Assembly (NCBI GenBank): GCA_003327425.1
Contig: QOQW01000005.1
Coordinates: 62,001 to 126,000, forward strand
Origin: Candidatus Ozemibacter sibiricus
GTDB lineage: Bacteria; Muiribacteriota; Ozemobacteria; Ozemobacterales; Ozemobacteraceae
Direction of reading: 5' to 3'
Length of the DNA: 64,000 bases
Within the stretch, counting starts at the first letter, position 1. Each line of letters opens with the position of its first letter. Made by a program: the position numbers and the translations under genes. Below the pieces are notes generated by a model. That model did no database searches. It saw only the letters and a list, made by a program, of their open reading frames with translations, and was not told the DNA's origin. Shown here in pieces: positions 3,499-50,405 of this stretch.

Positions 3499-4446
3499 AT
3501 GCGTCTCGCGTTGGTCACCGGCGGCGCCGGATTCATCGGATCGCACATCGTCGATGCGTTGCTGCAAGAGGGTTGGCGGGTTCGTGTGCTCGACGACTTC
3601 TCCACTGGCCGCCGCGCCAATCTGGCTCACGTTGGCAAAGAGATCGAGATCCTGGAAGGCGACGTGCGCGACGCGGCCGTCTGTCGGCGGGCCGTGGCCG
3701 GGGCCGAGGTCGTCTTCCATCAGGCGGCCATTCCCTCGGTGCCGCGGTCGGTGGCCGATCCCGTGGGCACCCACGCGGTCAATCTGACCGGTACCGTCCA
3801 GATGCTGACCGAGGCTCGGCAGGCCGGGGTGCGGCGCTTCGTCTTCGCCAGCAGCTCGGCCATCTACGGCAATGACCCCGAACTGCCCAAGCGCGAGACG
3901 ATGCGGCCCGCCCCGCTCAGCCCCTATGCCGCGCAGAAACTGGCGGGCGAGTACTACCTGCGGGTCTTTCAGGAGTTGCAGGGCATCGAAACGGTGGCCC
4001 TGCGCTATTTCAACGTCTTCGGCCCCCGCCAGGACCCGGCCTCCGAATATGCCGCCGTCATCCCGAAGTTCATCACCCGCATGCTGGCCGGCACGCCGCC
4101 GACCATCTTCGGCGATGGCCGTCAGACCCGCGATTTCATCTATGTGGGCGAGGTGGCGCGGGCCAACCTGCTGGCTGCCGCCGCGCCCGCGGCCGCCGGT
4201 CGGGTGATCAACATCGCCGGCGGGCGGCGCCTCGATCTGCTCGATCTCGCCGCCACCATCAATGAAGTGCTCGGCGCACGCCTCGAGCCGGTGTTCGCTC
4301 CCCCCCAGCCGGGCGATGTGCGTGATTCGGTGGCCGACATCTCCCAGGCGCGCGCGGTGCTCGGGTTCGAGCCTCGCCTTTCCTTCGCCGACGGGCTGCG
4401 CGCGACGGTCGCCTGGTACCGCCAGGCACGCGCCGCCGGCGGCTGA
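3499..4446 (+). CDS. NAD-dependent epimerase/dehydratase (UDP-glucose 4-epimerase-like SDR)
   Basis: 315 residues. The extended-SDR nucleotide-binding motif TGGAGFIG is at residues 7-14, an acidic residue after beta-2 (DDFSTGRR, 32-39) marks NAD preference, the catalytic serine lies in ASSSAIYG (117-124), and the active-site YAAQK has Tyr143 and Lys147. The family converts nucleotide sugars for polysaccharide or glycoconjugate synthesis. The overall pattern (HQAAIPSVPRSV, RYFNVFGPRQDP) resembles WbpP/GalE-type UDP-sugar 4-epimerases. The start was chosen at 3499 because GGGAGG sits eight bases upstream and the protein then begins directly at beta-1. It is divergent from the DUF885 gene. Exact substrate uncertain. 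Confidence 0.9.
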   Translation: MRLALVTGGAGFIGSHIVDALLQEGWRVRVLDDFSTGRRANLAHVGKEIEILEGDVRDAAVCRRAVAGAEVVFHQAAIPSVPRSVADPVGTHAVNLTGTVQMLTEARQAGVRRFVFASSSAIYGNDPELPKRETMRPAPLSPYAAQKLAGEYYLRVFQELQGIETVALRYFNVFGPRQDPASEYAAVIPKFITRMLAGTPPTIFGDGRQTRDFIYVGEVARANLLAAAAPAAAGRVINIAGGRRLDLLDLAATINEVLGARLEPVFAPPQPGDVRDSVADISQARAVLGFEPRLSFADGLRATVAWYRQARAAGG

Positions 4447-4458
4447 CCGCTGTTCGCC

Positions 4459-4519
4459 TGCCGAACGCGGCGCGTTCGGCAGGCCGTGCGCCGGGGTCCA
4501 GGGGCCACCGGCCCCTGGC
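4459..4519 (+). repeat. 61-bp two-hairpin dispersed repeat, copy A
   Basis: The first hairpin is an exact 11-bp stem (4458-4468 with 4472-4482, loop GGC). The second is CCAGGGGCC/GGCCCCTGG with a three-base loop (4499-4519). An ungapped second copy lies in inverse orientation at 7361-7421, 53 of 61 bases identical. Both are intergenic. It resembles REP-type elements and may also work as a terminator after the epimerase gene. Confidence 0.75.
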
Positions 4520-4616
4520 AGTCCTCAGGGGAAGCAGGGCTTCTCACGCTCTGAAGACCCTTCCTTCGGGGTGGGATTCGCCCTGTCGGAGCGCCTCCGC
4601 GGGCTGGCGCCGGGCG

Positions 4617-4670: not shown

Positions 4671-5363
4671 ATGATCACTCTGGCTCGGGCCCGTGCCCTT
4701 CTCGACCAGCACCTGGGCGCCAATCCGGCGCTGCGCAACCATTCCCTCGCCACTGGGGCGATCATGCGCGCCCTGGCCGACCGCTTCGGCGAGCCCGCCG
4801 ACGATTGGGAGGCCCTGGGCCTCCTCCATGACCTCGATTTCGAACAGACCCGCGACACGCCCGCCCGCCACACCCTCGAAACGGTCGAGTGGCTGCGCCC
4901 CGAAGGCGTGCCCGAACCCTACCTGCAGGCCATCGTGGCCCACAACGAAGCGACCGGGGCGGTGCGCGCCGACCGGCTGGCGCACGCCCTGGCCGCCGCC
5001 GAGAGCGTGACCGGCCTGGTCATGGCCTGCGCCTTCGTGCTGCCGGATCGACAGATCGCCTCGGTCAAGGTCGGTTCCTTGCGCAAACGCATGAAGGAGA
5101 AGGCGTTCGCCCGCAACGTCTCGCGGGAGACCATCCTGGAATGCGAGAAGATCGGGATCCCGCTCGATGAGTTCTTCGCCCTCGCTATCGCCGCCATGGC
5201 CCCGCTGCAAGAGACGCTGATCGCCAGGACCGGACCCGCGTTCGCGGCTCCGGTTGCCCCTTCCGCCCCTCCTGCCCCTGCGGCCCCCGCGGCCTCTGGC
5301 GAATCGGGCCGATCGGCTGGGGCGCCTGGCGCGGCCAGTACGACCGGTTCCACCGGTTCCTGA
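4671..5363 (+). CDS. HD-domain metal-dependent phosphohydrolase-like protein
   Basis: 230 residues. The HD fold occupies about residues 15-185: His24 in LRNHSLATG, the HD pair His53-Asp54 in GLLHDLD, a further HN in AIVAHNEATG, and an Asp in the DRLAHALAAAE helix. This family hydrolyses phosphate esters, often of nucleotides; the substrate cannot be read. The C-terminal 45 residues are a proline/alanine/serine-rich tail with no structure, a common addition in this genome. AAGGAG lies seven bases before the ATG. The gene ends 19 bases before rarA and probably forms an operon with rarA and the second HD gene. Confidence 0.85.
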   Translation: MITLARARALLDQHLGANPALRNHSLATGAIMRALADRFGEPADDWEALGLLHDLDFEQTRDTPARHTLETVEWLRPEGVPEPYLQAIVAHNEATGAVRADRLAHALAAAESVTGLVMACAFVLPDRQIASVKVGSLRKRMKEKAFARNVSRETILECEKIGIPLDEFFALAIAAMAPLQETLIARTGPAFAAPVAPSAPPAPAAPAASGESGRSAGAPGAASTTGSTGS

Positions 5364-5382: not shown

Positions 5383-6744
5383 GTGCCCGATCTCTTCGAC
5401 CGCCCGCCGCCGGGAAGCGGGACCCCGTCTCTGTTCCAGCCCCTGGCCGATCGGCGGCGGCCCGTCACGCTCGATCGCATCCGCGGCCAGGACCACCTGC
5501 TCGGACCGGGCAAGCCGTTGCGCACCCTGCTCGAAGCCGGGCGCTGTCCCTCGATGATCTTCTGGGGTCCGCCCGGCTGCGGCAAGACCACGCTGGCCCG
5601 GGTCATCGCCCGTCTGGCCGACGCCGAGTTCATTCCCCTGTCGGCGGTCACCTCGGGAGTGCGGGAACTCAAGGACGCCTGCGAGCAGGCGCGCATCTCC
5701 CGCACCCATCACGGGCGCGCCACCATTCTGTTCATCGACGAGATCCATCGCTACAACAAGAGCCAGCAAGACGCCCTGCTGCCTCATGTCGAGTCGGGAA
5801 CCGTCATCCTGATCGGCGCCACCACCGAGAATCCCAGCTTCGAAATCGTCTCCGCCCTGCTGTCGCGTTGCCAGGTGCTGGTCTTGCAGCCGCTGTCGCC
5901 GGCCGACGTCCGTCGCCTGCTCGACGAGGCGATCGCCGACGACCCCCAGTTGACGCGCGAACCGCGCCCGACCTGGGAAGACGACGCCCTCGACCGCATC
6001 GCCAAGCTGGCGGCCGGCGATGCCCGCATCGCCCTCAACGTGCTCGAGACCTGCACCGAGGTGGCCCGACAGCACGATCCATACCGGCCGGTCATCGGAC
6101 CGGCGCTGGTGGCCGAGGTCTTCCAGACCAAGGCCCTGCGCTACGACAAGGGCGGGGAAGAGCACTACAACCTGATCTCCGCGCTCCACAAATCGCTGCG
6201 CGGGTCCGATCCCGATGCCGGCCTCTACTGGCTCTATCGCATGCTCGAGGGCGGCGAGGATGCGCGCTTCATCCTGCGGCGGCTGATCCGCTTCGCCAGC
6301 GAAGATGTCGGGATGGCCGACCCCTTCGCGCTCACCCTGGCGATGTCGGCAGCCCAGGCCTTCGACTATGTCGGTCCGCCGGAGGGGCATCTGGCCATCG
6401 CGCAACTGGCCGTCTACCTGGCGGTGGCGCCCAAGAGCAATAGCTTGTACCTTGCCGAAAAACGGGTCATCGAAGCGATCCGGGCGGGGGGCGAACCGGG
6501 CGTGCCGTTGCACCTGCGCAATGCGCCCACCCGCCTGATGAAAGAGCTGGCCTACGGGAAGGAATATCGCTATCCTCATGACTATCCCGGCGGCTTCGTG
6601 CGCGAGAACTATTTCCCTGACGACCTGCCGACGCGACGGTTCTACCATCCCAAGCCGCTCGGCAAGGAAAAAGGCACGCTCGAACGCCTGCAGGCCCTGT
6701 GGCCTGACCGGTACAAAAAACGCCAACCTGATGGTGATGGATAG
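5383..6744 (+). CDS. rarA: Replication-associated recombination protein A (RarA/MgsA AAA+ ATPase)
   Basis: 453 residues from a GTG start with GGAGG seven bases upstream; an in-frame ATG further upstream lies inside the preceding gene. The Walker A motif GPPGCGKTT (about 62-70) and the Walker B region FIDEIHRYNKSQQD are exactly those of the RarA/WRNIP1 family. The family-typical C-terminal region follows, including GGEEHYNLISALHKSLRGSDPDA-type sequence. RarA acts at stalled replication forks, near the clamp loader and SSB. Length matches the usual 440-450. Flanked by two HD-domain genes; its last bases overlap the second one. Confidence 0.95.
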   Translation: MPDLFDRPPPGSGTPSLFQPLADRRRPVTLDRIRGQDHLLGPGKPLRTLLEAGRCPSMIFWGPPGCGKTTLARVIARLADAEFIPLSAVTSGVRELKDACEQARISRTHHGRATILFIDEIHRYNKSQQDALLPHVESGTVILIGATTENPSFEIVSALLSRCQVLVLQPLSPADVRRLLDEAIADDPQLTREPRPTWEDDALDRIAKLAAGDARIALNVLETCTEVARQHDPYRPVIGPALVAEVFQTKALRYDKGGEEHYNLISALHKSLRGSDPDAGLYWLYRMLEGGEDARFILRRLIRFASEDVGMADPFALTLAMSAAQAFDYVGPPEGHLAIAQLAVYLAVAPKSNSLYLAEKRVIEAIRAGGEPGVPLHLRNAPTRLMKELAYGKEYRYPHDYPGGFVRENYFPDDLPTRRFYHPKPLGKEKGTLERLQALWPDRYKKRQPDGDG

Positions 6745-7234
6745 CTCCTGGCCTGATCGATTGGTTGCCGGGCTGCGGCGGTTCCTGGGACGGGTGGCCT
6801 ATCGCCTGCGCCAGGCGCGCTCGGTGCTGTGGCCGCAGGTCGATCCTGTCTTGCTGGCCGAGGCCCGTTCGCGACTGCCGCCGCGGTGGCGGGCGCCCTT
6901 CGATCGCCTGGGCGGGTCGGAAAAGGCGCATGTGCTGCGGCTCTACCGGGCCATCGCCGCCGATCCTGCCCTCTCCGAGGCAGACCGTGAGGCCCTGATC
7001 ACGCTCGCCCTGACCCACGACCTGGGCAAGGCCATCACCCGGCCGACCTTCCTGGAACGAGTGGTCAAGACGCTCCTGCCCATTCCCAATCGAGCCCATC
7101 CGATCCTGGGGGCCCGCCTGTTGCGCCGGCTGGGCGCCCCCCCGGCCCTGGTGCGCCGGGTGGCCCGCCATCACCGCGCTCCGGGAAACGATCGCCTGCT
7201 GGCGCTGTTCCAACGCTACGACGACTCTCTCTGA
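6731..7234 (+). CDS. Small HD-domain phosphohydrolase-like protein
   Basis: 167 residues, with the start overlapping the last 14 bases of rarA; a second ATG six bases on (6737) is equally possible and neither has a strong ribosome binding site, which fits translational coupling. The HD elements are His67 (KAHVLRLYR), His96-Asp97 (LTHDLGKAI), a HPILGA segment near residue 125 and the HH pair in VARHHRAPG, so all metal ligands of the family look intact. The N-terminus has an amphipathic basic segment but no membrane helix. Substrate unknown. Not closely similar by eye to the other HD protein upstream of rarA. Confidence 0.8.
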   Translation: MVMDSSWPDRLVAGLRRFLGRVAYRLRQARSVLWPQVDPVLLAEARSRLPPRWRAPFDRLGGSEKAHVLRLYRAIAADPALSEADREALITLALTHDLGKAITRPTFLERVVKTLLPIPNRAHPILGARLLRRLGAPPALVRRVARHHRAPGNDRLLALFQRYDDSL

Positions 7235-7360
7235 GAGGGCGCGCCCGCCGCGCGCGCGGGCCGCTCGCCGAGCGACGAAGGCGATCTGGGCGGAGCGATG
7301 GCCCCACCCAGAGGAGCCACTTTCGGGTGAGAGGTCAGAACCTCTCCCCAGCAGAACACG

Positions 7361-7421
7361 GCCAGGGGCCGGCGGCCCCTGGACCCCTGGTCACAGCCTG
7401 CCGAACGTGTCGCGTTCCGCA
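7361..7421 (-). repeat. 61-bp two-hairpin dispersed repeat, copy B
   Basis: Inverse copy of the element at 4459-4519, 53 of 61 bases identical without gaps. The CCAGGGGCC/GGCCCCTGG hairpin is intact; the other stem has lost some pairs. It lies in the 258-base gap between the small HD gene and the stop of the GmrSD-like gene, at the point where base composition changes. Confidence 0.75.
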
Positions 7422-7492
7422 AGCGGGTCGACCTCGGCGCATCCATAGGGTGGCCTCGGCTTCTTGATTGGCAAAAGCTGTGGGAAAAAGAG

Positions 7493-9187
7493 TTAAACGT
7501 CGATCCGCCACACCTGGGAAGCGATTTTGGCCAAGCGCTCCTGCCGCTTCTGCAGCGTAGATGGAGTCCATTCATCATAAGCGGCGGTTTCCCTGGTCAT
7601 TTTGAAAGCGCTTGTGAGGTAGACAGCTCTCTTTTGCGTATACGATGAATTGCCGACCTCGCGATTCTTGGTTTCCTCCAAGAGCGTCAGGTTTCCCAGC
7701 CGGTACCCATCCTGTTCGGCATCCAGGGCGGGGAACGCCTGTTCCCATTCCGGTCCTGGATTCTCTGGCAGGATGTGCTCGATGGTCGTTGCCGGGTCGT
7801 CGAAATCCAGCGCAGTGCCGTTCAAACGGTTCTCGATCTCGAAAAGGATGTAGCGCGCCAGACGTTTCCAACGGCGACCATTGGTCTTGATGGTTTTGTA
7901 GCTGAAGTTGCTCTCAAAAACCCTGTCTTCGACGTAAATTGTGGAAAGACCTCGGAAAATCTCGGCCGGAGTCTTCCGTTGGCCTGTGTTGACTTCTACG
8001 GCCACACGGCTGTAGATCCGTTCCATCTCATTGCACGCCAGGTTGCTGATGACGGTGTAGCGAAAGGAGATCACGACGCAGATGCGAAGCAGGCGGGCGA
8101 ACGCGGGGGGATCCATGATCCGCCAAGCGCTGAACAGGAGTGGATAGCACTGCGAGACGCCGAACAGGTCCAATTCCAGGACGGATCGTTTCTGCTCTTT
8201 CGTCCATTGCGGGTCATCCGGCCGCTGCAAGGCGGCATACAAAGGAGCGAACTTCTCCAGGTCCTCGAGCAGCGCGAAAACATGGTCGGCGGTTTTGACT
8301 TCGCCCTGGATGGCCTTGAAAAGGGTTGGTTGGCGTTCCAGCAGATGACCCGAATTCCAGTAATGCCTCAGGAAGACGGTGAAATCTTCCGCGCCCAGGG
8401 AATTGTTGATGCTTTGCCATTGTCGTTCGGCTTCCGGCAGGTCGGCTCGCCGTTCTTTATCCACAATGGAAAACAGGTAATTTTTCAGCAGGTCGGCGGC
8501 GGATAGCCTGACGCCGCGCGCATTCAGAGTTTCGAACACTTTGTAGGCCTGCAGGCCATCCCTGACATACATCGTGGTGAAAATCAGCTGGCGAGCGATG
8601 GTTTCATTAAGAAAGCGGGCCAGGTCGCTCCCCGTTGCCTGAGGGAAATCTTTGGCGAGCATCCGACCGAAATACTCGAAGGCCTCCCACATCAGGCGTT
8701 CGGATGGCTTCAAACGGGCTGTGGAAGCCGGCTTTCTCATGCGCAGCAGATAGCTCTGGTAGAAATCATCGTTGTTGCGGTTCAGCACCAAACGGCTGCT
8801 GGTCGTCAGCGCCGCTGGGTCCTTGTACCCGATGAATTGACGCCGCAGTTCTTCGACCCGCTCCTGATTCTCTTTCGGCTCGATGCCTTTTTCCGCCAGT
8901 TCCCTGATGGCTTGCATGACGGCCAGGGCCAGGATGCTGAGCGTCGTGAAGCGTTGTTGTCCGTCGATGATCGTGAAATTCCTGTCGTCTTCGGTTTGGA
9001 AGACGGCGTATCCCATGTAATGGAGCTTTTCTTCTTCCAGGCCCTTGATATCGGACCACAGGTCTTCCCATTGCTCATCCGTCCAGGAGTAATCCCTCTG
9101 GAAAGGCGGAACGCGGTAGATGCGGCCGTTGCCGATCAGCGAACCGAAATCGGCGGTCACGGTGTGCAGGACATTGGTTGAAGGCAT
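7493..9187 (-). CDS. GmrSD-like DUF262/DUF1524 protein (probable anti-phage nuclease)
   Basis: 564 residues. The N-terminal DUF262 (ParB/Srx-like NTP-binding) domain shows the family hallmarks VPPFQRDYSW (26-35) and IIDGQQRFTTL (73-83). The C-terminal DUF1524 HNH-nuclease domain shows IEHILPEN near residue 467 with the downstream LGNLTLLEETKN. This is the fused layout of GmrSD-type modification-dependent enzymes, which cut foreign DNA with modified bases after NTP binding. GGAGGG lies before the ATG. The gene is visibly richer in A+T than its neighbours, with codon use to match, stands alone, and has AT-rich flanks plus a repeat copy downstream, all of which suggest recent transfer. Target modification unknown. 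Confidence 0.88.
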   Translation of the reverse strand: MPSTNVLHTVTADFGSLIGNGRIYRVPPFQRDYSWTDEQWEDLWSDIKGLEEEKLHYMGYAVFQTEDDRNFTIIDGQQRFTTLSILALAVMQAIRELAEKGIEPKENQERVEELRRQFIGYKDPAALTTSSRLVLNRNNDDFYQSYLLRMRKPASTARLKPSERLMWEAFEYFGRMLAKDFPQATGSDLARFLNETIARQLIFTTMYVRDGLQAYKVFETLNARGVRLSAADLLKNYLFSIVDKERRADLPEAERQWQSINNSLGAEDFTVFLRHYWNSGHLLERQPTLFKAIQGEVKTADHVFALLEDLEKFAPLYAALQRPDDPQWTKEQKRSVLELDLFGVSQCYPLLFSAWRIMDPPAFARLLRICVVISFRYTVISNLACNEMERIYSRVAVEVNTGQRKTPAEIFRGLSTIYVEDRVFESNFSYKTIKTNGRRWKRLARYILFEIENRLNGTALDFDDPATTIEHILPENPGPEWEQAFPALDAEQDGYRLGNLTLLEETKNREVGNSSYTQKRAVYLTSAFKMTRETAAYDEWTPSTLQKRQERLAKIASQVWRIDV

Positions 9188-9441
9188 GTTTTCCCTCCGC
9201 TCATCACTAAAAGCAGTGTATCACACTTGGCTGATCATGCCGTTCGATGCCCATCTGGTGCCGGTTCGAACCGGATCCATCCAAGGCATTCCGGAGACCG
9301 ACCGAATGTTCATCCGTTGCCCAGATCGACGATCACAGGCAATTCGCAGGTTGCATCGACGACTAGGGGATGCCCTTTCTGAATGCCTTCACTCGAACTT
9401 GAAACGTTGGGGAAAAATAGAAAGGGACTGGCTTGCGATGA

Positions 9442-11496
9442 TCAGCGGGCGGGGCGCAAGCGGCGTTGCAGGGCGTCGCGCCGTTGGCGGGCGCGGGCGA
9501 GCTCGGTGGCGGCGTCGCGCACCTCGTGCTCGGCGGCGCCGGGCCGCTGGGTCAGGCGCTGGTAGGTCGCATACGCCGCCTGGTAGCTCTGTTGGGCCTG
9601 CTCGAGGGTCAGGCCGGCGGGGAGGTCGACTTCGGGCTCGACCTGCCGTTGCAGGGCCTCGGCCGTCGAGGTGGCCGTCGATTCGGCGGTGGTGGTCGGG
9701 GTGGCCGCCAGGGCCTCGAGCACCTCCAGGCGTTGCCGCAGTTCGTCGGCCCCGCGTTGCAGGCGGGCCGCCTCGCTCTGCAACTCCTGGCGGAGCAGGA
9801 GGTTCCAGGCGGGGGCCCTGGCCAGCTGCGCCCGGACGGCGGCCAGGCTGGCTTCGGTCTCCTGCAGCCGGCGCCGGGTGTCGGCGGTCAAGCGCTCGAG
9901 TGCAACGCCGCCGGCGGCGATCTGCTGGATGATCTGGAAGGTCTCGGCGAACGACCGCTCCTGGGTCAGGAAGGCATCGGACGCCTGGCGCAGGGTCTCC
10001 CGCTTCTGCCACCAGTCGACAGGATTGTACCAGGCGACCTGCTTGTACTCCATCAGCGCGCGGCGCAGGCCGCGATCAGCGCTCAGCAGGGCGGCCACCC
10101 GGGCGGGGGACACGCCCAGGTGCGGATGGTCTTCGAAGTAGTAGGCCAGCAGACGACCCGCCTTTTCACGGGCGGCCGCCGTCCGCGCCGGGCCGGGCCG
10201 GAACGGCCAGAACCAGGGCCACTCGCGGCGCATCGCCTCGATCCGTTCGACCTCCTGCCAGGCGGCGGCCACCTGGGCGATGGTGACGGGCTTGCGCCCG
10301 GTCGCGGTCAGACCAGCCTTCTTGAACTGCTCGCGCTGGCGGGCCAGGGCCTGCGGATCGGGCTGGATGCCCTCCATCGCGTAGGCGATGATCTCGGGAT
10401 AGGTGAGGTCTTCCCGCACCAGAAGACCCTCGACATAGCGCGACAGCACCTGCTTGTGGCGAGGGTTGCCCCAGACGCTGGCCGTGCCCATGGCGCGGGC
10501 GAGGTCGAGGAACCGGCCTCGCAAGAAGGGCGTGGCCAGCGCTCCCTTCACCACGCCGTAGCCGAGCACGGTGAAGATGGTGGTGTCGGTGTCGCTGTGC
10601 AGCGCCTTGCCGAGCCAGTGCTGGAAGAAATCGCGGGCTTTCTGGGTCAGGGAAGTCTGGACGGGGGCGGCGAAAAACCCGTCGCGCTCGTCGAGCGAGG
10701 CGGCGCGGGTCTTGCGGAAGTCGGCCCGGCCGTGCTCGCGCAGCAGGGAGACGACCCGCGCCACGCTCTCGTCGAGATCGGCCTGGCGGTCGGCGTGGAA
10801 GTCGTCCATCTCGTCGAGGAGGTCGGGGCGTTCGCGCAGAAGGTACTCGGCGATGACGCGCACGCCGCTCACGGTCTTGATGAACGTATGGCCGGCCCAC
10901 CGGATCTGATCGGCGCGCATGGTGCCGCCCTTGCCGCCGCGGGCTGCCTCGTCGGCCATCGCCTTCTCGAGCAGTCGCGCCGGAATGGCCAGCCCCACCT
11001 TGCGCTGGGCGCGGGCGCGCTCGCGGTAGGCGAGCAGGTCGGTCACCAGTTCGTTGACCTGGTGGTTCAAGCCGGCGGGGTTGGGCACGGGCAGCGTGAT
11101 CTTGCGATTGGGATAGCCATCTTCGGTGTGGGCCGTCCAGACCTCGGCGAAGATATGGCCGGCCCAGCCCAGGGCCATGGCCACATCGGCCTTGCCCCAG
11201 GGCTCCTGTTTGGCCAGCGCGATCAGCCGAACGGCGACCTCGGGCGAGGTATGGAACTCGAGGGGAAAGGACGCCCCGGCAGTGAATTTGATGTCGGGGC
11301 AGGGCCCGCCGCCGATGAACTCATCGCGCAGGTCGGGCGTCACGCACAGCCCCGAGCCCATCTCGCGGGCGGCTTGCTCCCAGGCCAGCTCGTTGATGGC
11401 CATGTGGGTCATCGGCCCCCACGCCAGCGCGGGCCCCCCGACCCACCCGAGCAGGGCGACCAGCAGCACCTTCGCTACAACATGCATGCGCCGCAT
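9442..11496 (-). CDS. Secreted zinc-dependent phospholipase C-like protein with coiled-coil tail
   Basis: 684 residues with a signal peptide (cleavage after ALA, residue 25) that would leave tryptophan as residue 1 of the mature protein. In Bacillus cereus PLC and S1/P1 nucleases the N-terminal Trp is itself a zinc ligand. The other ligands are recognisable: His in WGPMTHMAIN, Asp in CPDIK, His in LEFHTS, GWAGHIFAEVWTAH, and NHQVNE. So the first 170 residues look like a complete Zn_dep_PLPC domain. The last 280 or so residues are Ala/Arg/Gln/Leu-rich and probably coiled coil, unlike classical PLC. Transcribed alone; -10 TATAAT upstream at 11540-11545. Substrate could be phospholipid or nucleic acid. 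Confidence 0.8.
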   Translation of the reverse strand: MRRMHVVAKVLLVALLGWVGGPALAWGPMTHMAINELAWEQAAREMGSGLCVTPDLRDEFIGGGPCPDIKFTAGASFPLEFHTSPEVAVRLIALAKQEPWGKADVAMALGWAGHIFAEVWTAHTEDGYPNRKITLPVPNPAGLNHQVNELVTDLLAYRERARAQRKVGLAIPARLLEKAMADEAARGGKGGTMRADQIRWAGHTFIKTVSGVRVIAEYLLRERPDLLDEMDDFHADRQADLDESVARVVSLLREHGRADFRKTRAASLDERDGFFAAPVQTSLTQKARDFFQHWLGKALHSDTDTTIFTVLGYGVVKGALATPFLRGRFLDLARAMGTASVWGNPRHKQVLSRYVEGLLVREDLTYPEIIAYAMEGIQPDPQALARQREQFKKAGLTATGRKPVTIAQVAAAWQEVERIEAMRREWPWFWPFRPGPARTAAAREKAGRLLAYYFEDHPHLGVSPARVAALLSADRGLRRALMEYKQVAWYNPVDWWQKRETLRQASDAFLTQERSFAETFQIIQQIAAGGVALERLTADTRRRLQETEASLAAVRAQLARAPAWNLLLRQELQSEAARLQRGADELRQRLEVLEALAATPTTTAESTATSTAEALQRQVEPEVDLPAGLTLEQAQQSYQAAYATYQRLTQRPGAAEHEVRDAATELARARQRRDALQRRLRPAR

Positions 11497-11539
11497 ACGC
11501 TTCCCCTTTTTCCTTCGAACAGGGTACCTTATTATTTAA

Positions 11540-11545
11540 ATTATA
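11540..11545 (-). promoter_or_regulatory. Candidate -10 element for the PLC-like gene
   Basis: TATAAT on the minus strand in a short AT-rich stretch, about 45 bases before the ATG. No convincing -35 at 16-18 bases. Confidence 0.4.
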
Positions 11546-11596
11546 CTTACCTCTCCCAGGGGGAAGGGAAAACAGATTCGGTCGTGACGGCGGGCC

Positions 11597-12379
11597 CTAC
11601 ATCAACCCGTACAGGCGCAGGATGCCTTCATAGCTGACGGTCATCATCGGGCCCAGGACCGGGTCGAGGAGCCCGAGCGAGACGGCCAGGATCAGCAGCA
11701 GAGGCCCGATGTCATCGAGGGTGCGCATCAACGGGGCATGCTGGCGGGGCAGGAAATAGCGCAGCACCCGCGAGCCGTCCAAGGGGGGCAGCGGCAGCAG
11801 ATTGAAGCAGGCGAGGGCCAGGTTGACCAGGATGAAGGTCTGCAGCGCCTTGGCCAGAATGTCGAGGGGCAGAGCCGGCAGCCCCCACATCAGATGCAGG
11901 CTGATCATCCCTTTCAAGAGGGCCCCGCCGATCACGGCCAGCAACAGGTTCGACAGCGGTCCGGCCAGTGCCACCGACATCATGGCCCGCGACGGGATGC
12001 GGAAGGAGCTGGGATCGACCACCACCGGCCTGGCCCAGCCGAAATTGGAGAAGACCAGCATCAGGGTGCCGACCGGGTCGAGGTGCGCCAGCGGATTCAG
12101 GCTCAAGCGGCCTTGCCGGCGCGGGGTCGGGTCGCCCAGGAAATCGGCCATCGCCGCGTGCGCATACTCGTGGAACGCCAGCGAGAACAGCAGCAACGGC
12201 GCGTAGAGCAGGAAGTGCAGCACTTTCCAGAGGAAGAGGCCGGGTCCCATCAGCAAGGCGTTGGCCAGCCACAAGGCCAGCAGGATGCCGAGGATGAGGG
12301 TGAGTCGGCGCCAGGTCTCAGGAGGCAGGCCGCTGGCTCCCGGATGGCGGAAGATGAAGATGCGCGGTCTGTCGTACAT
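11597..12379 (-). CDS. Site-2 protease family M50 intramembrane metalloprotease
   Basis: 260 residues, about six membrane segments. The zinc-binding HEYAHA has His70, Glu71 and His74 inside the second hydrophobic segment. The third ligand is Asp201 in FNLLPLPPLDG, the typical NxxPxPxLDG motif, which places it in the compact M50B group close to the YwhC/Rv-type proteases. The family cuts membrane-embedded substrates such as anti-sigma factors or signal peptides; the target is unknown. The start at 12379 overlaps the end of the tRNA nucleotidyltransferase gene by 62 bases and has AAAGGA ten bases upstream. Last gene of the leftward signalling operon. Confidence 0.92.
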   Translation of the reverse strand: MYDRPRIFIFRHPGASGLPPETWRRLTLILGILLALWLANALLMGPGLFLWKVLHFLLYAPLLLFSLAFHEYAHAAMADFLGDPTPRRQGRLSLNPLAHLDPVGTLMLVFSNFGWARPVVVDPSSFRIPSRAMMSVALAGPLSNLLLAVIGGALLKGMISLHLMWGLPALPLDILAKALQTFILVNLALACFNLLPLPPLDGSRVLRYFLPRQHAPLMRTLDDIGPLLLILAVSLGLLDPVLGPMMTVSYEGILRLYGLM

Positions 12380-15314
12380 GGGTTTCTTCGTCCTTTCGGG
12401 AGGTCAGTTCCCCTCGGATTCGCCTGGCCAGCAGGTCGGCCAAGATGGTTCGCATGTGAGGGCCGGGCGGAATGCCCATGGCCAGCAGGTCTTTGCCGGT
12501 CAGTTCGCTTCTGATGCCGCGCAGTCGCCCCAGGAAATCGAGCACGCGCCGGGCGCCGCCCTTGTCGAGGCTGAAGGCGATCAGGGAAATGAGGGTCTCG
12601 AGCGCCAGACCGTGCAGCAGGCTGTGCAATCCGACATCGTCGTCGGGGGCCAGCCGGGCCAGCCGGCCGGGCAGGTGCGGCATCAGGCGCAGGGCCTCCA
12701 TCACCAGATGGCGGCGTCGCGCCGGAAAATGCAGGTCGCGCAGGATGCGGTCGGCGTCGCCCAGCGAGAGCGGCAGCAGCAGCCCTGTCCAGTGGATGGC
12801 CTCGAGGTCGATCGGCTCGCCCAGGGCGGCGAACCGTCGCACCATGCCGGGCACCAGCCGGAAGCGCACCGGCAGTTGCTCATACCCGCGCAGGCCGGGG
12901 TGCAGCGCCCGGATCAGCCCGGTCTCGAACAGGCGGCGCAGCACCCGGTGGGGCGCCTCTTCGAGCAGGCAGCGGCCGATCTCGGCGCCGATCCGTTTGG
13001 GGGAGAGCTTGGTCACGGCGCCGCGTTGCACGGCCAGATCGAACGCCCGCTGGGTGTCGGCCTCGAGGGTGAAGCGGAACCGGCTGGCGAAGCGCAGGGC
13101 CCGGAACAGGCGGGTCGGATCCTCGAGGAAGCTGAACGAGTGCAGAATCCTGATCTGGCGGTCGCACAGATCGCGGTAGCCGCCGAAGAAATCGCGCAGA
13201 TGCAGGAACCGCTCGGGCAGGATGTCCAGCGCCAGGGCGTTGATCGTGAAGTCGCGCCGGAACAGGTCGTTCGACAGGCCCGACAGTTCGACCGCCGGCA
13301 GGGCGGCCGGCTGCTCATAATGCTCGATGCGGGCCGAGCTGAAATCGATCTTCAGCCCGTCGACGGCCAGCCGGGCGGTGCGGAACTGCTCGAAATGGCA
13401 GAGCTCGGCCCCCAGCTCGGCCTGCACGGCCTCGACGAAGGGCAGGGCGTCGCCGATCAGCACGATATCGAGGTCGAGGCAGGCCCGCTCCAGCAGAAGG
13501 TCGCGCACGAATCCTCCGACCAGGAACGCCTGTCGCCCCAGCGCCGCGGCCTTGGCGCCGATCTTCTGCAGCAGAGGCAGCACCCGCTCAGGCATGACCC
13601 GTCGCAGCAATCCTTCGATGGCGGCGGGTGTCGGCAGGTCGGTGGTCTGCACCAGCGGCAGGAACTCCCGCGGCAGCGGCAACGGGTCGCGCATCGCCCG
13701 CAGCAGCTCGCGGGCGGTGATCAGCCCCACGCAGACCCCGTCCTCGACCACCGGCAGCCGGGTCACGTTGTGGCGCAGCATCAGTTGCCGCAGCACGCGC
13801 ACCGGCATGTCGGGCCGTACCTCGGGGGTGGTGCGCGGCACGAACGATTCGATCGGGTCGCCCCACAGGTCCATCTGGACGGCCCGGTCGATGTCGCGGC
13901 GGGTGATCAGGCCGACGTAGCGGTCGTCCCGCGTCACCACCAGCGACATCAGGTTGAACCGGAGCATCATGTCGTGAGCGTTTTCCACCGTCTCCGAAGC
14001 CGGAATGCTGCGCGGCGAGACGGCCATGATCTCGCGGGCCGTGGTGTCGGGGCGCAGGCCGGCCCGCAGCGCGCCCAGCAGCAGGTCGCGCACGGCGGCC
14101 GGTTCTCCGTGCGGCACCTGGAAGGTCAGCCAGCGTTCGCTCTCCTGCGGGTTCCAGGCCCGGAAGCAGGGCCCCAGCGGCGCTTCGACCAGGCGACTGC
14201 GGGCGAAGACCCGGCTGCGGCTCCCGTAGCTGACCGCCGCCACCAGCAGGTGGGCGTCGAGCCGCGACCACAGGGCATCCATCACCGGCAGCAGATCTTG
14301 GACATTGCCGATGGTACGCGCCACGGTCACCATCACCGGCCAATGGCCCACGGTCTCGTCGGTGGCCTGACTGAGCAGATCGTTGAGCAGGCCGCGCTGG
14401 CCTTCCCGCAGGCCGAGACAGACGAGGTTGCCGACTTGCTTGGCCGGCACCGGAAACGTGCGCAGGTACTGCAGCGCGTCGAGATCGAGCGGGGTGACGC
14501 GGTGGGCCAGCCCGCACCAGGTGCGCTCGGTGACCGCCGTGGTCAGCAGCGCGGCGTCTTCGTCGGACAGCGCGCCGGCCTGCCGACGGAGTTCGTTGAC
14601 GAAATGCGCGGTGTAGCTGCACGCCTTCACCAGCACCGACCGGGCCGCGACGGGCAGCATGGGAGGGGCGTGGGCGTAGCAGATCACTTCGGCGGCGAGG
14701 CGGGGCAGGCGCCCGACCAGTTCAGGGGACTGCGGGGCCTGGGTGAGCCCGAGCAGGTGGATCACCCGCGCCTGCTCCCACAGCGCCGGGTCGAGCGGCC
14801 CGGTCGGATACCACGGCGCTCGCCGCACCAGGCTCCAGGCGTTGCTCGCCAGGCGGCTCGGCCGGATCAGGCGGGCGCGCGGGCGCAGCAGCAGCAAGCA
14901 GCGCGCGGCTGCCACCAGGTCGAGATCGGCCCCGTGCGGCAACGCCACGAGTTCGAGGCCGTCGGTCGCGGCTCCGCGCGGCTCAGTCGCCCGGCTGGCA
15001 AGGGCGCGAGCGGATGACGTCGCCCGTGCCGCGTCGCCGTGGCCGCCCGCCGGGATGGCCGTGGCCGGAGCCGGGGCCTGCGATGGCTGGCCAGCGCGGT
15101 CGGCCTGCCTGGCGGGGTCGAGCGCGGGGCCCCGGTCGTTCTGAGCGGCCGGGCCAGCCCGCCGGGCCTGGTCTATCGGACCTGCCCCGCCCGTCCGGTC
15201 GGCTCGACCGGCCAAGCCCGCCTTGTGGTCGGCCGGGCCCGGGCCGGGCGGCCTGGCGGGCCGGACAGCCCCCGGCCGGGAGGGCTTCGTAGGTCGGGGC
15301 CGTCCGCGTGTCAT
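12318..15314 (-). CDS. DHH-CBS-poly(A)-polymerase-type tRNA nucleotidyltransferase
   Basis: 998 residues. The start ATG overlaps the stop of the HD-GYP gene (ATGA). Residues 1-110 are Pro/Ala/Arg-rich and disordered. About 115-400 is a DHH/DHHA1-like domain in which the signature motifs are eroded (LPHGADLDLV, and YAHAP where DHH is expected), so it is probably not an active phosphoesterase. Two CBS domains follow at about 415-530. The class II nucleotidyltransferase head starts near 590 with GGFVRDLL and the metal-binding pair LDLDIVLIGD, then RRDFTINALA and the RNA-binding C-terminal half. Such fusions add C or A to tRNA 3' ends; CC-adding versus A-adding cannot be decided by eye. Confidence 0.88.
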   Translation of the reverse strand: MTRGRPRPTKPSRPGAVRPARPPGPGPADHKAGLAGRADRTGGAGPIDQARRAGPAAQNDRGPALDPARQADRAGQPSQAPAPATAIPAGGHGDAARATSSARALASRATEPRGAATDGLELVALPHGADLDLVAAARCLLLLRPRARLIRPSRLASNAWSLVRRAPWYPTGPLDPALWEQARVIHLLGLTQAPQSPELVGRLPRLAAEVICYAHAPPMLPVAARSVLVKACSYTAHFVNELRRQAGALSDEDAALLTTAVTERTWCGLAHRVTPLDLDALQYLRTFPVPAKQVGNLVCLGLREGQRGLLNDLLSQATDETVGHWPVMVTVARTIGNVQDLLPVMDALWSRLDAHLLVAAVSYGSRSRVFARSRLVEAPLGPCFRAWNPQESERWLTFQVPHGEPAAVRDLLLGALRAGLRPDTTAREIMAVSPRSIPASETVENAHDMMLRFNLMSLVVTRDDRYVGLITRRDIDRAVQMDLWGDPIESFVPRTTPEVRPDMPVRVLRQLMLRHNVTRLPVVEDGVCVGLITARELLRAMRDPLPLPREFLPLVQTTDLPTPAAIEGLLRRVMPERVLPLLQKIGAKAAALGRQAFLVGGFVRDLLLERACLDLDIVLIGDALPFVEAVQAELGAELCHFEQFRTARLAVDGLKIDFSSARIEHYEQPAALPAVELSGLSNDLFRRDFTINALALDILPERFLHLRDFFGGYRDLCDRQIRILHSFSFLEDPTRLFRALRFASRFRFTLEADTQRAFDLAVQRGAVTKLSPKRIGAEIGRCLLEEAPHRVLRRLFETGLIRALHPGLRGYEQLPVRFRLVPGMVRRFAALGEPIDLEAIHWTGLLLPLSLGDADRILRDLHFPARRRHLVMEALRLMPHLPGRLARLAPDDDVGLHSLLHGLALETLISLIAFSLDKGGARRVLDFLGRLRGIRSELTGKDLLAMGIPPGPHMRTILADLLARRIRGELTSRKDEETHVRQTAHLHLPPSGSQRPAS

Positions 15315-47025: not shown

Positions 47026-47403
47026 GTGAGTCGAGCCCCGGGCAGGGGTCCCGACACCCTCAAGACGAACGCTGAATTCCAGCGGGTGTTCACGGAAGGG
47101 TTCCGTTTCTTCCGGAATGGTCTGGGGTTCTATGCGCGGTCCAATGGAGGGGAGGCCTTCCGGTTCGGGATCGTTGCCCCCAAGCGGTTCGGTCATGCGG
47201 TCGATCGGAATCGGTTCCGCCGGCGCGTGCGCGAGGTGATTCGCCTTTCTCCCGAGGTGCCGCCAGGATTCGACGTAGTGATCTGCGTCGGCAAGCCTTG
47301 CGGCGACCTCGGGTTCGATGTCATCCGCAAGACCCTGCTCTGGGCCTGGTCGCGGATCCGCCGGGCGTCGCCGGCCGCTCCCGACGGGGTGGCCGGTGGG
47401 TAG
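47026..47403 (+). CDS. rnpA: Ribonuclease P protein component
   Basis: 125 residues from GTG. The RNase P signature AVDRNRFRRRVREVIR and the preceding FRFGIVAPKRFGHA strand are present, with the usual N-terminal LKTNAEFQRVFTEG. It binds the catalytic RNA and helps mature tRNA 5' ends. Position between rpmH and yidD is the classical order. Confidence 0.95.
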   Translation: MSRAPGRGPDTLKTNAEFQRVFTEGFRFFRNGLGFYARSNGGEAFRFGIVAPKRFGHAVDRNRFRRRVREVIRLSPEVPPGFDVVICVGKPCGDLGFDVIRKTLLWAWSRIRRASPAAPDGVAGG

Positions 47404-47412
47404 ACCGCCGCG

Positions 47413-47655
47413 ATGGATCCTTCATCAACCGAACGGCCGTCGTGGGCAGCCCAGGCCAGTCTCGGGTTCATTCGCTGGTATCAGCGCTGGTTGTCGCCGT
47501 ACGTCGGCCAAGGATGTCGGTTTCAGCCGACCTGCTCGCGGTATACCCATGAAGCCATCACCCGGTATGGGTTCTGGAAGGGGTGGGGGCTGGGCCTCTG
47601 GCGGATCCTGCGGTGCAACCCATTCTGTCGTGGCGGCGACGACCCGGTCCCCTGA
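47413..47655 (+). CDS. yidD: Membrane protein insertion efficiency factor YidD
   Basis: 80 residues with the YidD hallmark pattern IRWYQRWLSPYVGQGCRFQP, TCSRYTHEAI and LRCNPFCRGGDDPVP. The three conserved cysteines are present. A small amphipathic protein at the inner membrane that assists YidC-dependent insertion. It starts nine bases after rnpA, in the standard order before yidC. Confidence 0.95.
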   Translation: MDPSSTERPSWAAQASLGFIRWYQRWLSPYVGQGCRFQPTCSRYTHEAITRYGFWKGWGLGLWRILRCNPFCRGGDDPVP

Positions 47656-47715
47656 CGGGCCGCCGTCGATGACGTTCCCCGTCCTCCACTCCATCCCCCC
47701 CTGGAGGCACTCCCC

Positions 47716-49362
47716 GTGTCCAGTCATTCCCTGAATTGCGCGCCGGCCTCGATCCGGCGTTCCGCTTTTTCGCGCCGCGGCCGCTTGGCCTGCGGGCTGG
47801 TCGCCCTGTTGGCGGCGTGCTTCCTGTTGGTCAGGCCCGGCCCGGGGCAGACCCAGCCGGCTGAGCGGCCGCCGGTGTCGTCGGTCGCGGCCCGCCCGCT
47901 GACCGCCGAAACGGCCGATCTCGACGGCGACAACCTGCCCGATGTCCGCATCGAGACCCCGCGTCTGCGGGTCGTCCTGGCCGGCAAGACCGGTTCGATC
48001 GCTGTCTACTACCTGAAAGGCGTCAATTTCGAAGAGAACCTGTACCCCCCTGTCCTTCAAGACATGGGGTACTCCTTCGCCTCGGATACCCTCACTCCTT
48101 TCGAGTGCACCATCGGGAGCGAGGCGTTCCGCCATTTCGGGTTCCATCTGAAGATCGAGGAACGGACGCCCGAAAAGATCGTCGTGGCCGCCACCGCCAA
48201 TGTCCCTCTGCAGTCAGGGGTGCCGCAGCTCGGGTTGATCCGGCGGTTCACCTTCTCGACCACCGGCTACACCTTCGATCTCGAGCAGGCGGTGACCAAT
48301 CTCGGCGACGAAGCGATGGCGGTCGGCGATGAAGCCCAAGGCGGCGTCGGCGTCCGCTTCGGGCCCGGGCTCTTCCTCGAGCCCATCACCAACAGTTTCC
48401 TGCTGGCCCTGAAGCCTGACCAGGTCGAGAGTTTCGACAAGGCGTCCGCCTTCATGAAGGCGGCGTCCGCCGGCGGGTACACCGGGGTGGGGTTGAAATC
48501 CAACTACTTCTGTCTGCTGATCGACGCCAAATCGCCCAGCCGGATCGCCGCGCAGGACTTCGAACTCCATCCGAGCGATCCGAACAAGCGCGGGCGCACC
48601 TACCGGGGCGAGGTGGTGCGGGTCTCCGGGCCTCCCCTGCTCTTGAAAGCCCGTGAGACACGCGCGTCCACGATGCATATCTATTTCGGGCCCAAGCTGC
48701 TCGATGAGCTGCGGGCCATCCAGCGGGAGCAGGTGACCGATTACGGGTTCCTCAGCACGGTGCTGCTGCGCATTCTCCAGTTCTTCAACCACCTCTATCC
48801 CAACTTCGGGTTGTCGATCGTGCTGCTGACCGTGGTGGTCCGCATCCTGCTCTACCCGCTGACCCTCAAGCAGACCAAGTCGATGGCCAAGGTCCAGAAG
48901 ATCCAGCCCCTGGTCCAGGATCTGAAAGACCGCTATCGCGACAACCCGCAGAAATTCAACGAGGAAGTGCTGAAGCTCTACCAGAAGCATGATGTGAACC
49001 CGCTCGGCGGCTGCCTGCCCCTGCTCCTGCAGCTGCCGATCCTGTTCGCCCTCTACAACACCATCAACATCTCGGTCGAGCTGCGCAAGACGCCCTTCCT
49101 TTGGATGAACGACCTGTCGAAGGCCGACCCGCTTCTTCTGCTTCCCATCGGCATCGCCGCCCTGATGTACTACCAGCAGGGCCAGATGCAGGATCCCCAG
49201 CAACAGCAGATGATGGCGTTCATGCCGATGTTCATGTTCGTCATCACCTGGTCCCTGCCGGCAGGTCTGCTGGTCTACTGGTTCACCAGCAGCGTCCTCG
49301 GCGTATTCCAGCAGTTACAGGCCAACCGGATCATGGCGGCCATGAAGGAGGATAAAACGTGA
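47716..49362 (+). CDS. yidC: Membrane protein insertase YidC
   Basis: 548 residues from GTG, with GGAGG eight bases upstream. An N-terminal anchor helix (about 24-44) precedes a large periplasmic domain (about 45-335), the Gram-negative form. The conserved insertase core has about five helices, with FLSTVLLRILQFFNHLYPNFGLSIVLLTV-type sequence, the cytoplasmic loop KSMAKVQKIQPLVQDLKDRY, PLGGCLPLLLQLPILFALYN and the C-terminal WSLPAGLLVYWFTSS. It inserts membrane proteins alone or with SecYEG. It overlaps jag by four bases (GTGA). Confidence 0.97.
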   Translation: MSSHSLNCAPASIRRSAFSRRGRLACGLVALLAACFLLVRPGPGQTQPAERPPVSSVAARPLTAETADLDGDNLPDVRIETPRLRVVLAGKTGSIAVYYLKGVNFEENLYPPVLQDMGYSFASDTLTPFECTIGSEAFRHFGFHLKIEERTPEKIVVAATANVPLQSGVPQLGLIRRFTFSTTGYTFDLEQAVTNLGDEAMAVGDEAQGGVGVRFGPGLFLEPITNSFLLALKPDQVESFDKASAFMKAASAGGYTGVGLKSNYFCLLIDAKSPSRIAAQDFELHPSDPNKRGRTYRGEVVRVSGPPLLLKARETRASTMHIYFGPKLLDELRAIQREQVTDYGFLSTVLLRILQFFNHLYPNFGLSIVLLTVVVRILLYPLTLKQTKSMAKVQKIQPLVQDLKDRYRDNPQKFNEEVLKLYQKHDVNPLGGCLPLLLQLPILFALYNTINISVELRKTPFLWMNDLSKADPLLLLPIGIAALMYYQQGQMQDPQQQQMMAFMPMFMFVITWSLPAGLLVYWFTSSVLGVFQQLQANRIMAAMKEDKT

Positions 49363-50405
49363 CGACCCGACGCTTCATCGAAATCACCGCGAAATCGCCT
49401 GAAGAGGCCCGACAACTGGCCGAGCGGGAACTGAAGGAGGGCGAGCGGATCACGGCGTCCGAAGTGCTCCAGGCTCCTGCCCGTGGCATCTTCGGCGTGG
49501 TGGGCAATCCCGAGACCCGCCTCCGTTTCACCTGCGAGATGGCCCCGCCCGTGGTCGAGGAGTCCCGTCCGGCGCCGCGCGTCGAGACGTCACGGGCGCG
49601 CGCCGTGCCCGCCGCGATCGAAGCGGAAGGCGAGCCTGACGAAGACCACGATGACCACGAAGCGCTCGATGCCTACGACGACGAGGTCGAGAGCGAGGAC
49701 GCGGACGAGGGCGACGCCGAGGCGGAAGACGCCGCGGGGCCCGCCTCGGCGCCGGGGGTCGATGATGGGTTCGATGTCACCCAGGATCCCATGTGGGGCA
49801 CCATCCAGGCCTTGTTGCAGAAGGTGGCGACCACTCTCGGCGTGAAGGATCCCGTCTTCCGGACCTATCGGCGCGATGGCACCAGCATCGTCGAAGCGGC
49901 GGGGGAGAACGTTTCCCAGTTGATCGGCAAGCACGGTCGCACGCTCGATTCCCTGCAGTATCTGCTGAACATCGTCTTGAACAAAGGTCGCGATGACCGC
50001 ACCAAGCTGGTGCTCGACGTCCAGGGCTACCGCGAGAAGCGGCACAAGAACCTGATCATGCTGGCCAACCGCATGTACCGCAAGGTCATCGACACCGGTC
50101 GACAGGTCGAACTGGAGCCGATGTCGACCCTCGATCGCCGCACGGTGCACCTGGCGCTGAAAGATCGCAGCGGGGTCGAAACCTACTCGCGCGGCGTCGA
50201 ACCGATGCGCCGGGTGGTGATCGCGCCGACCCGGCCGGGAACGGCGGCCAATGGCCCAGGCCGTGGTCGCGGCGACCGCGGCGGGCGGCGCCACGAGCGG
50301 GGCGAGGCGCGCGACCGGCGGCCGGCTTCCACCCGCGACGAGGCGCCGACCAGGCCGTCGTCGGTGCCGATGTTCTTCGAGGGGGATGGGTCCGACGAGG
50401 GGTGA
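49359..50405 (+). CDS. jag: Jag/KhpB RNA-binding protein (KH-R3H)
   Basis: 348 residues from a GTG overlapping yidC. The N-terminal Jag domain (about 1-60: RFIEITAKSPEEARQLAERE, GIFGVVGN) is joined by a very acidic, disordered linker (about 85-140) to a KH domain with IGKHGRTLDSLQYLLN, and then an R3H domain with RRTVHLALKDRSGVETYS. The last 70 residues form an Arg/Gly-rich tail that the short Firmicute proteins lack. KhpB-type proteins bind many RNAs and influence cell division and shape. Its end overlaps mnmE by 20 bases. Confidence 0.94.
   Translation: MTTRRFIEITAKSPEEARQLAERELKEGERITASEVLQAPARGIFGVVGNPETRLRFTCEMAPPVVEESRPAPRVETSRARAVPAAIEAEGEPDEDHDDHEALDAYDDEVESEDADEGDAEAEDAAGPASAPGVDDGFDVTQDPMWGTIQALLQKVATTLGVKDPVFRTYRRDGTSIVEAAGENVSQLIGKHGRTLDSLQYLLNIVLNKGRDDRTKLVLDVQGYREKRHKNLIMLANRMYRKVIDTGRQVELEPMSTLDRRTVHLALKDRSGVETYSRGVEPMRRVVIAPTRPGTAANGPGRGRGDRGGRRHERGEARDRRPASTRDEAPTRPSSVPMFFEGDGSDEG

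Follow-up and report, generated by a model that had tools for sequence, protein, structure and literature searches.

A probably acquired, stand-alone HEC-06-type restriction gene between two convergent genes of Candidatus Ozemibacter sibiricus

The gene at positions 7493-9187 (minus strand) of the window, by which we mean the whole 64,000-nucleotide stretch of the Candidatus Ozemibacter sibiricus genome analysed here, is best explained as a horizontally acquired, stand-alone restriction factor of the HEC-06 type, a reading that we consider probable. It codes for a 564-aa protein with a DUF262 (GmrSD_N) and a DUF1524 (GmrSD_C) domain. Judged by its sequence, it is a further member of an already known defence family that is found in many bacteria, and the protein is probably a DNA-cutting defence protein. 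It would be a tidy example of a defence gene that moved by itself, with no terminal repeats, into the space separating two convergent genes. The initial annotation had described the gene as recently acquired anti-phage cargo between AT-rich flanks and beside a dispersed repeat. This account is right in essence; the coordinates and the statements on the downstream flank and on the repeat need correcting.

Both domains exceed their Pfam cut-offs: DUF262 (PF03235) spans residues 16-239 (E 8.4e-36; 124.4 bits, cut-off 33.2) and DUF1524 (PF07510) residues 419-555 (E 9.7e-28; 97.2 bits, cut-off 23), which places the protein in the GmrSD domain family. HEC-06 is the top PADLOC family, and its profile matches over the full length, residues 1-563 aligning with profile positions 1-567 of 569 at E 1.5e-215. 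At E <= 0.001 the protein hits 34 PADLOC families altogether, and the best 25 of these include models for Orf5 (best 7.9e-195), SspE and mREase_IV. HEC-06 is a single-gene candidate defence family of PADLOC-DB; the gene agrees with it in sequence type and in being a single gene, with novelty confined to its host and its site. The description as a lone DUF262-DUF1524 protein is borne out by a single such ORF on the minus strand. The interval 7235-9441 assigned to it does hold the gene, but is the whole stretch from the stop of an HD-domain gene to the stop of the next gene.

Catalytic motifs known from GmrSD, DGQQR and E/D-H-N-N (PMC4619093), are both present in the 564-aa protein. The DGQQR motif (D75-R79; codons at 8951-8965, minus strand), to which a role in nucleotide hydrolysis is ascribed (PMC11662687), is identical in 9/9 rows of our alignment A1 and 9/9 rows of alignment A3. 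The HNH nuclease motif, consisting of E470-H471, N499 and N508 (codons within 7664-7780, minus strand), was located by a phmmer alignment against H508, N532 and N541 of DndI. E470 and H471 are constant in all nine rows of each alignment and N499 is kept with the exception of the homologue L002, while N508 is absent or substituted in 4/9 rows of A1 and likewise in 4/9 rows of A3. Outside both alignments, the homologue L090 reads DGQQQ and does not keep the arginine. The variability of N508 and the missing arginine of L090 indicate that the family does not keep every catalytic residue. DndI needs R87 of DGQQR to hydrolyse ATP and N541 to nick (PMC11662687); in the phmmer alignment these residues correspond to R79 and N508 of the 564-aa protein. 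L002 (1486-3030), a homologue from another genus of the phylum, has an internal deletion of the stretch with the HNH asparagines, which may point to an inactive protein or to a misassembly.

Among solved structures, DndI of the IscS-DndBCDE-DndI system (PDB 9JFL) is nearest in sequence, with E 1.1e-18 for the protein and 1.7e-51 for profile A1. An AlphaFold model of the protein (mean pLDDT 76.7, pTM 0.61; low confidence in the N-terminal domain) ranks DndI likewise nearest in fold, followed by SspE and then BrxU. It matches DndI with a Foldseek E of 6.4e-14 and TM 0.53 (Z 27.1, rmsd 10.2, 491 aligned) and the C-terminal fold of SspE (7dri_C) with Z 24.4 and rmsd 3.5 (332 aligned). DndI shares the two domains at full length, DGQQR and the H/N/N triad with our protein; SspE shares the DUF262 and DUF1524 motifs and is longer (771 aa in 6jiv). 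Both differ from it at the tyrosine that reads phosphorothioate (PT) marks, Y25 in DndI and Y30 in SspE (PMC11662687). This position is F29 in the 564-aa protein and phenylalanine in 9/9 rows of A1 and 8/9 rows of A3, the sole exception being a tyrosine in L076. The phenylalanine in most subfamily rows examined offers a simple way into the question of what HEC-06 proteins that act alone respond to.

A classical type IV enzyme of the GmrSD/BrxU kind, cutting only DNA with modified cytosines, is the alternative that survives best. We regard it as possible but doubtful, and its odds overlap with those of the stand-alone HEC-06 factor because it is a special case of that reading. GmrSD and BrxU share the domain pair, the E-H-N-N motif (E/D-H-N-N in GmrSD; PMC4619093) and the single-chain form with our protein, which also matches the mREase_IV model at E 4.4e-19. 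The AlphaFold model aligns to BrxU with Z 12.9 and rmsd 4.8 over 284 residues of the C-terminal half; both BrxU structure rows start only at model residue 227, so that the N-terminal fold is hardly compared. Against this reading, profile A1 matches eight PDB sequences at E <= 1, among them DndI, SspE and another DUF262 protein (20yv/20yw) but not BrxU, and HEC-06 fits far better than mREase_IV.

In composition and codon use, the gene stands apart from its surroundings. Its GC content is 0.558 compared to 0.658-0.709 in the four neighbour genes measured, and its GC3 is the lowest among 37 predicted window genes (called by a simple rule on frame composition, so that some may be wrong), which confirms its AT-richness relative to the surrounding DNA. 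Its codon log-likelihood of 0.099 is likewise the lowest of the 37, the next being 0.143, and its CAI-like index of 0.542 the second lowest (mean 0.702, sd 0.081). The GC and codon-usage comparison suggested with the initial annotation thus reveals a codon use different from that of the neighbours, and not a uniform adaptation. AT-richness of the flanks holds for the upstream side (9188-9441; GC 0.524), which is single copy in the genome, but not for the downstream side (7235-7492), where a GC of 0.694 is host-like.

The suggested search for an empty site in relatives shows that the gene is absent in both congeners, G001 and G002. The protein has matches at E <= 0.001 in 11 of 56 genomes (its own included), and neither congener is among them, while the surrounding 15-17 kb or so run colinear in the window and in both of them. 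The interval from the HD-domain gene to the gene ending at 9442 is 2205 bp long here and 2288 bp, with different content, in G002; in the comparison with G001, where the match ends earlier, 2241 bp here stand against 757 bp. The G002 interval codes for an unrelated 346-aa Transposase_31 protein (PF04754, E 6.8e-24), of a family that we take to be Rpn-type. Its gene sits between inverted repeats of about 55 bp (2172-2226 and 4228-4283 of locus L057); the best 30-nt inverted pair there matches at 27/30 positions, against 20-22 in shuffles. These repeats belong to an element family for which G002 yields at least 40 matches (E <= 0.001, counting the query itself; best 40 of 87 candidates), G001 two weak ones and the genome of the window (G000) one. 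The short G001 interval holds no remnant of the nuclease or of the Transposase_31 protein (tblastn, nothing below E 0.9). In G010, from another genus, the HD-domain gene is followed by a different and presumably rubrerythrin-like ORF, so the right border of the interval is not common family-wide.

A more specific proposal would be that this gap is a small hotspot of the genus that has more than once received single foreign genes (the HEC-06 nuclease; the Transposase_31 gene between inverted short dispersed repeats), that short dispersed repeats assist the insertions, and that the nuclease is a PT-independent, partner-free relative of DndI with phenylalanine for the sensor tyrosine and a different trigger. 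We give this combination little credence. The idea of a hotspot is based on three genomes, and finding two inserts in the same gap may be coincidence. Each congener shows six gaps between the colinear blocks, of which this one is the largest in G002, while G001 has a larger gap of 2220 bp between an epimerase-type gene and the gene at 4671. There, G001 carries about 2 kb extra (L087, 8923-11142), and the equivalent place in the window has a copy of the twin-hairpin repeat described below.

Among 381 genomes, the nearest homologue found lies outside the phylum (49% identity). Six of the 381 match at E <= 1e-60, the own genome included, and two of the homologues, with 49% and 45% identity, come from outside the phylum and outscore the three others of the own phylum. 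Within the phylum, 4 of 39 genomes match at E <= 1e-30, again counting the own genome, and the three others are 37-44% identical. In a 16-row tree, in which L071 and L084 are long branches, the protein pairs with the 49% homologue at a support of only 83/82. The four own-phylum rows require three changes in this tree, at least two of them forced by well supported branches, and none of the 200 bootstrap trees unites them (0%); the same degree of clustering is reached in 132 of 500 label shuffles. The 49% homologue is likewise a single gene, inside a run of same-strand ORFs, and those beside it look to us like pyrD and a HAD phosphatase.

The outlying codon use and GC content, the absence in the congeners, the nearest homologue outside the phylum and the tree together suggest a lineage-specific acquisition of the gene, which we regard as well supported. 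Since the phylogeny of GmrSD led to the inference of frequent horizontal transfer of GmrSD genes (PMC4619093), the gene would represent a case of a known kind. Of the view as recent anti-phage cargo, the acquisition stands (by codon use and absence in two congeners) and the homology to a defence family is strong, whereas the anti-phage activity is a prediction; "recent" is to be read relative to the split from G001 and G002, three genomes of the genus being compared. That the gene is instead an old one of the clade, lost in both congeners and odd in composition for other reasons, appears unlikely. The comparison of only three genomes of the genus and the subfamily homologues in three other genomes of the phylum would agree with losses, but these homologues do not group with the window gene, G365 from outside the phylum is closer to it than they are, and its codon use is foreign.

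Homologues are also found in 46 of 72,556 plasmid records (E <= 1e-20) and at 10 viral-contig loci, some of which are near-copies of one another. On the Paracoccus pantotrophus plasmid pPAN1 (L072, 3964-12572), a class I SAM-dependent DNA methyltransferase gene precedes the homologue, and two hypothetical genes and then a type I restriction endonuclease gene come after it. A close donor did not emerge: the scan of genome contigs gave one relative at 39%, too distant to name a donor, the viral contigs, searched with the single protein, gave no relative, and the 14 phage records with a homologue are all under 60% identity and likewise provide no nameable donor.

The motifs and the DndI-like model, the phenylalanine at the sensor position and the failure to find DndC lead us to prefer an HNH nuclease that works alone, is regulated by NTP and attacks incoming DNA. 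The N-terminal ParB/Srx-like domain (DUF262) would bind and hydrolyse NTP at DGQQR and read a feature of DNA, with a modified base as a possible trigger. The C-terminal HNH domain (DUF1524) would then nick or cut the DNA, and phage or plasmid DNA might thereby be damaged without need of a partner gene. The gene presumably entered the space between convergent 3' ends, where an insertion would harm neither neighbour, after the species had split from the two compared congeners (or it may have been lost from both). What we infer for the 564-aa protein is its action as a nuclease and NTPase, its independence of partners, its role against phages and the mark that it would recognise. Several HECs including HEC-06 showed antiviral activity according to PMC12988326, which cites a preprint, and a predicted HEC-06 gene was upregulated during phage infection of Burkholderia cenocepacia (PMC12584637).

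A decayed or inactive remnant, as might be suspected from a gene that stands alone without a recognisable promoter and has in L002 a homologue that lost part of the HNH domain, is very unlikely in view of the full-length open frame with its catalytic motifs in place. Scarcely credible is an effector like DndI or SspE for which PT marks of the host would distinguish self from non-self: DndI is the closest solved relative in sequence and fold, but PT sensing by the 564-aa protein is unlikely because the sensor tyrosine is replaced and because, unlike in the DndI system, DndC (TIGR03183), the PT gene searched for, is without a match at E <= 0.001 in the own genome, which is 97.87% complete (the TIGR03183 control rings in 5/14, none over the cut-off).

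The insert lies where two convergent genes face each other with their 3' ends. Its left border is the HD-domain gene (6578-7234, plus strand, start codon uncertain; PF01966, E 3.5e-9), which is colinear in G001 and G002, and its right border a conserved gene (9442-11496, minus strand, stop at 9442) with 81% identity in G002 and 68% in G001. For the latter, Pfam gives no family at E <= 0.001 and hence no support for the name PLC; the interval had been described as running from rarA to PLC, and the HD-domain gene stands between rarA and the insert. No terminal repeats were found around the insert in the interval: the best 30-nt inverted pair matches at 20/30, and five shuffles reach 20-21. Likewise, no sigma-70-like promoter was found in 7200-9500 (0.9 expected from shuffles). 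PADLOC on seven other window genes (three of them adjacent) gave weak matches only, the best being IetA for the RarA-type ATPase (E 8e-6), with Cas3 for the HD-domain gene (E 2.6e-4). We read these as probable shared domains, and thus see no defence island among these seven genes. A tRNA-Tyr at 10994-11086, considered as an integration site, is an ARAGORN call only, on the strand opposite to the conserved protein gene, and is treated as spurious because Rfam has no match up to E 1 over 6700-12500.

The dispersed repeat noted downstream of the gene is indeed present, at about 7350-7440. Genome search, alignment of eight copies and folding describe it as two adjacent hairpins of roughly 75 bp, with a second window copy at 4455-4522. 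The own genome has at least 45 matches at E <= 0.01, self included (best 40 of 151 candidates). A 91-bp query finds, at E <= 1e-4, at least 39 matches in the own genome (best 40 of 123 candidates), at least 21 in G001 (best 40 of 117) and none in G002 (33/33 candidates scored). As a general feature of the genome, the repeat says nothing on the arrival of the gene. RNA structure beyond composition is not indicated (folding z -0.48; 63 of 200 shuffles fold equally well), and a REP/RAYT origin is unsupported, as Y1_Tnp (PF01797) has no match in the own genome. Elsewhere in the window (47026-50405), genes for the Ribonuclease P protein, a YidC-type protein and an R3H/KH-domain protein are consecutive, an arrangement often located near replication origins.
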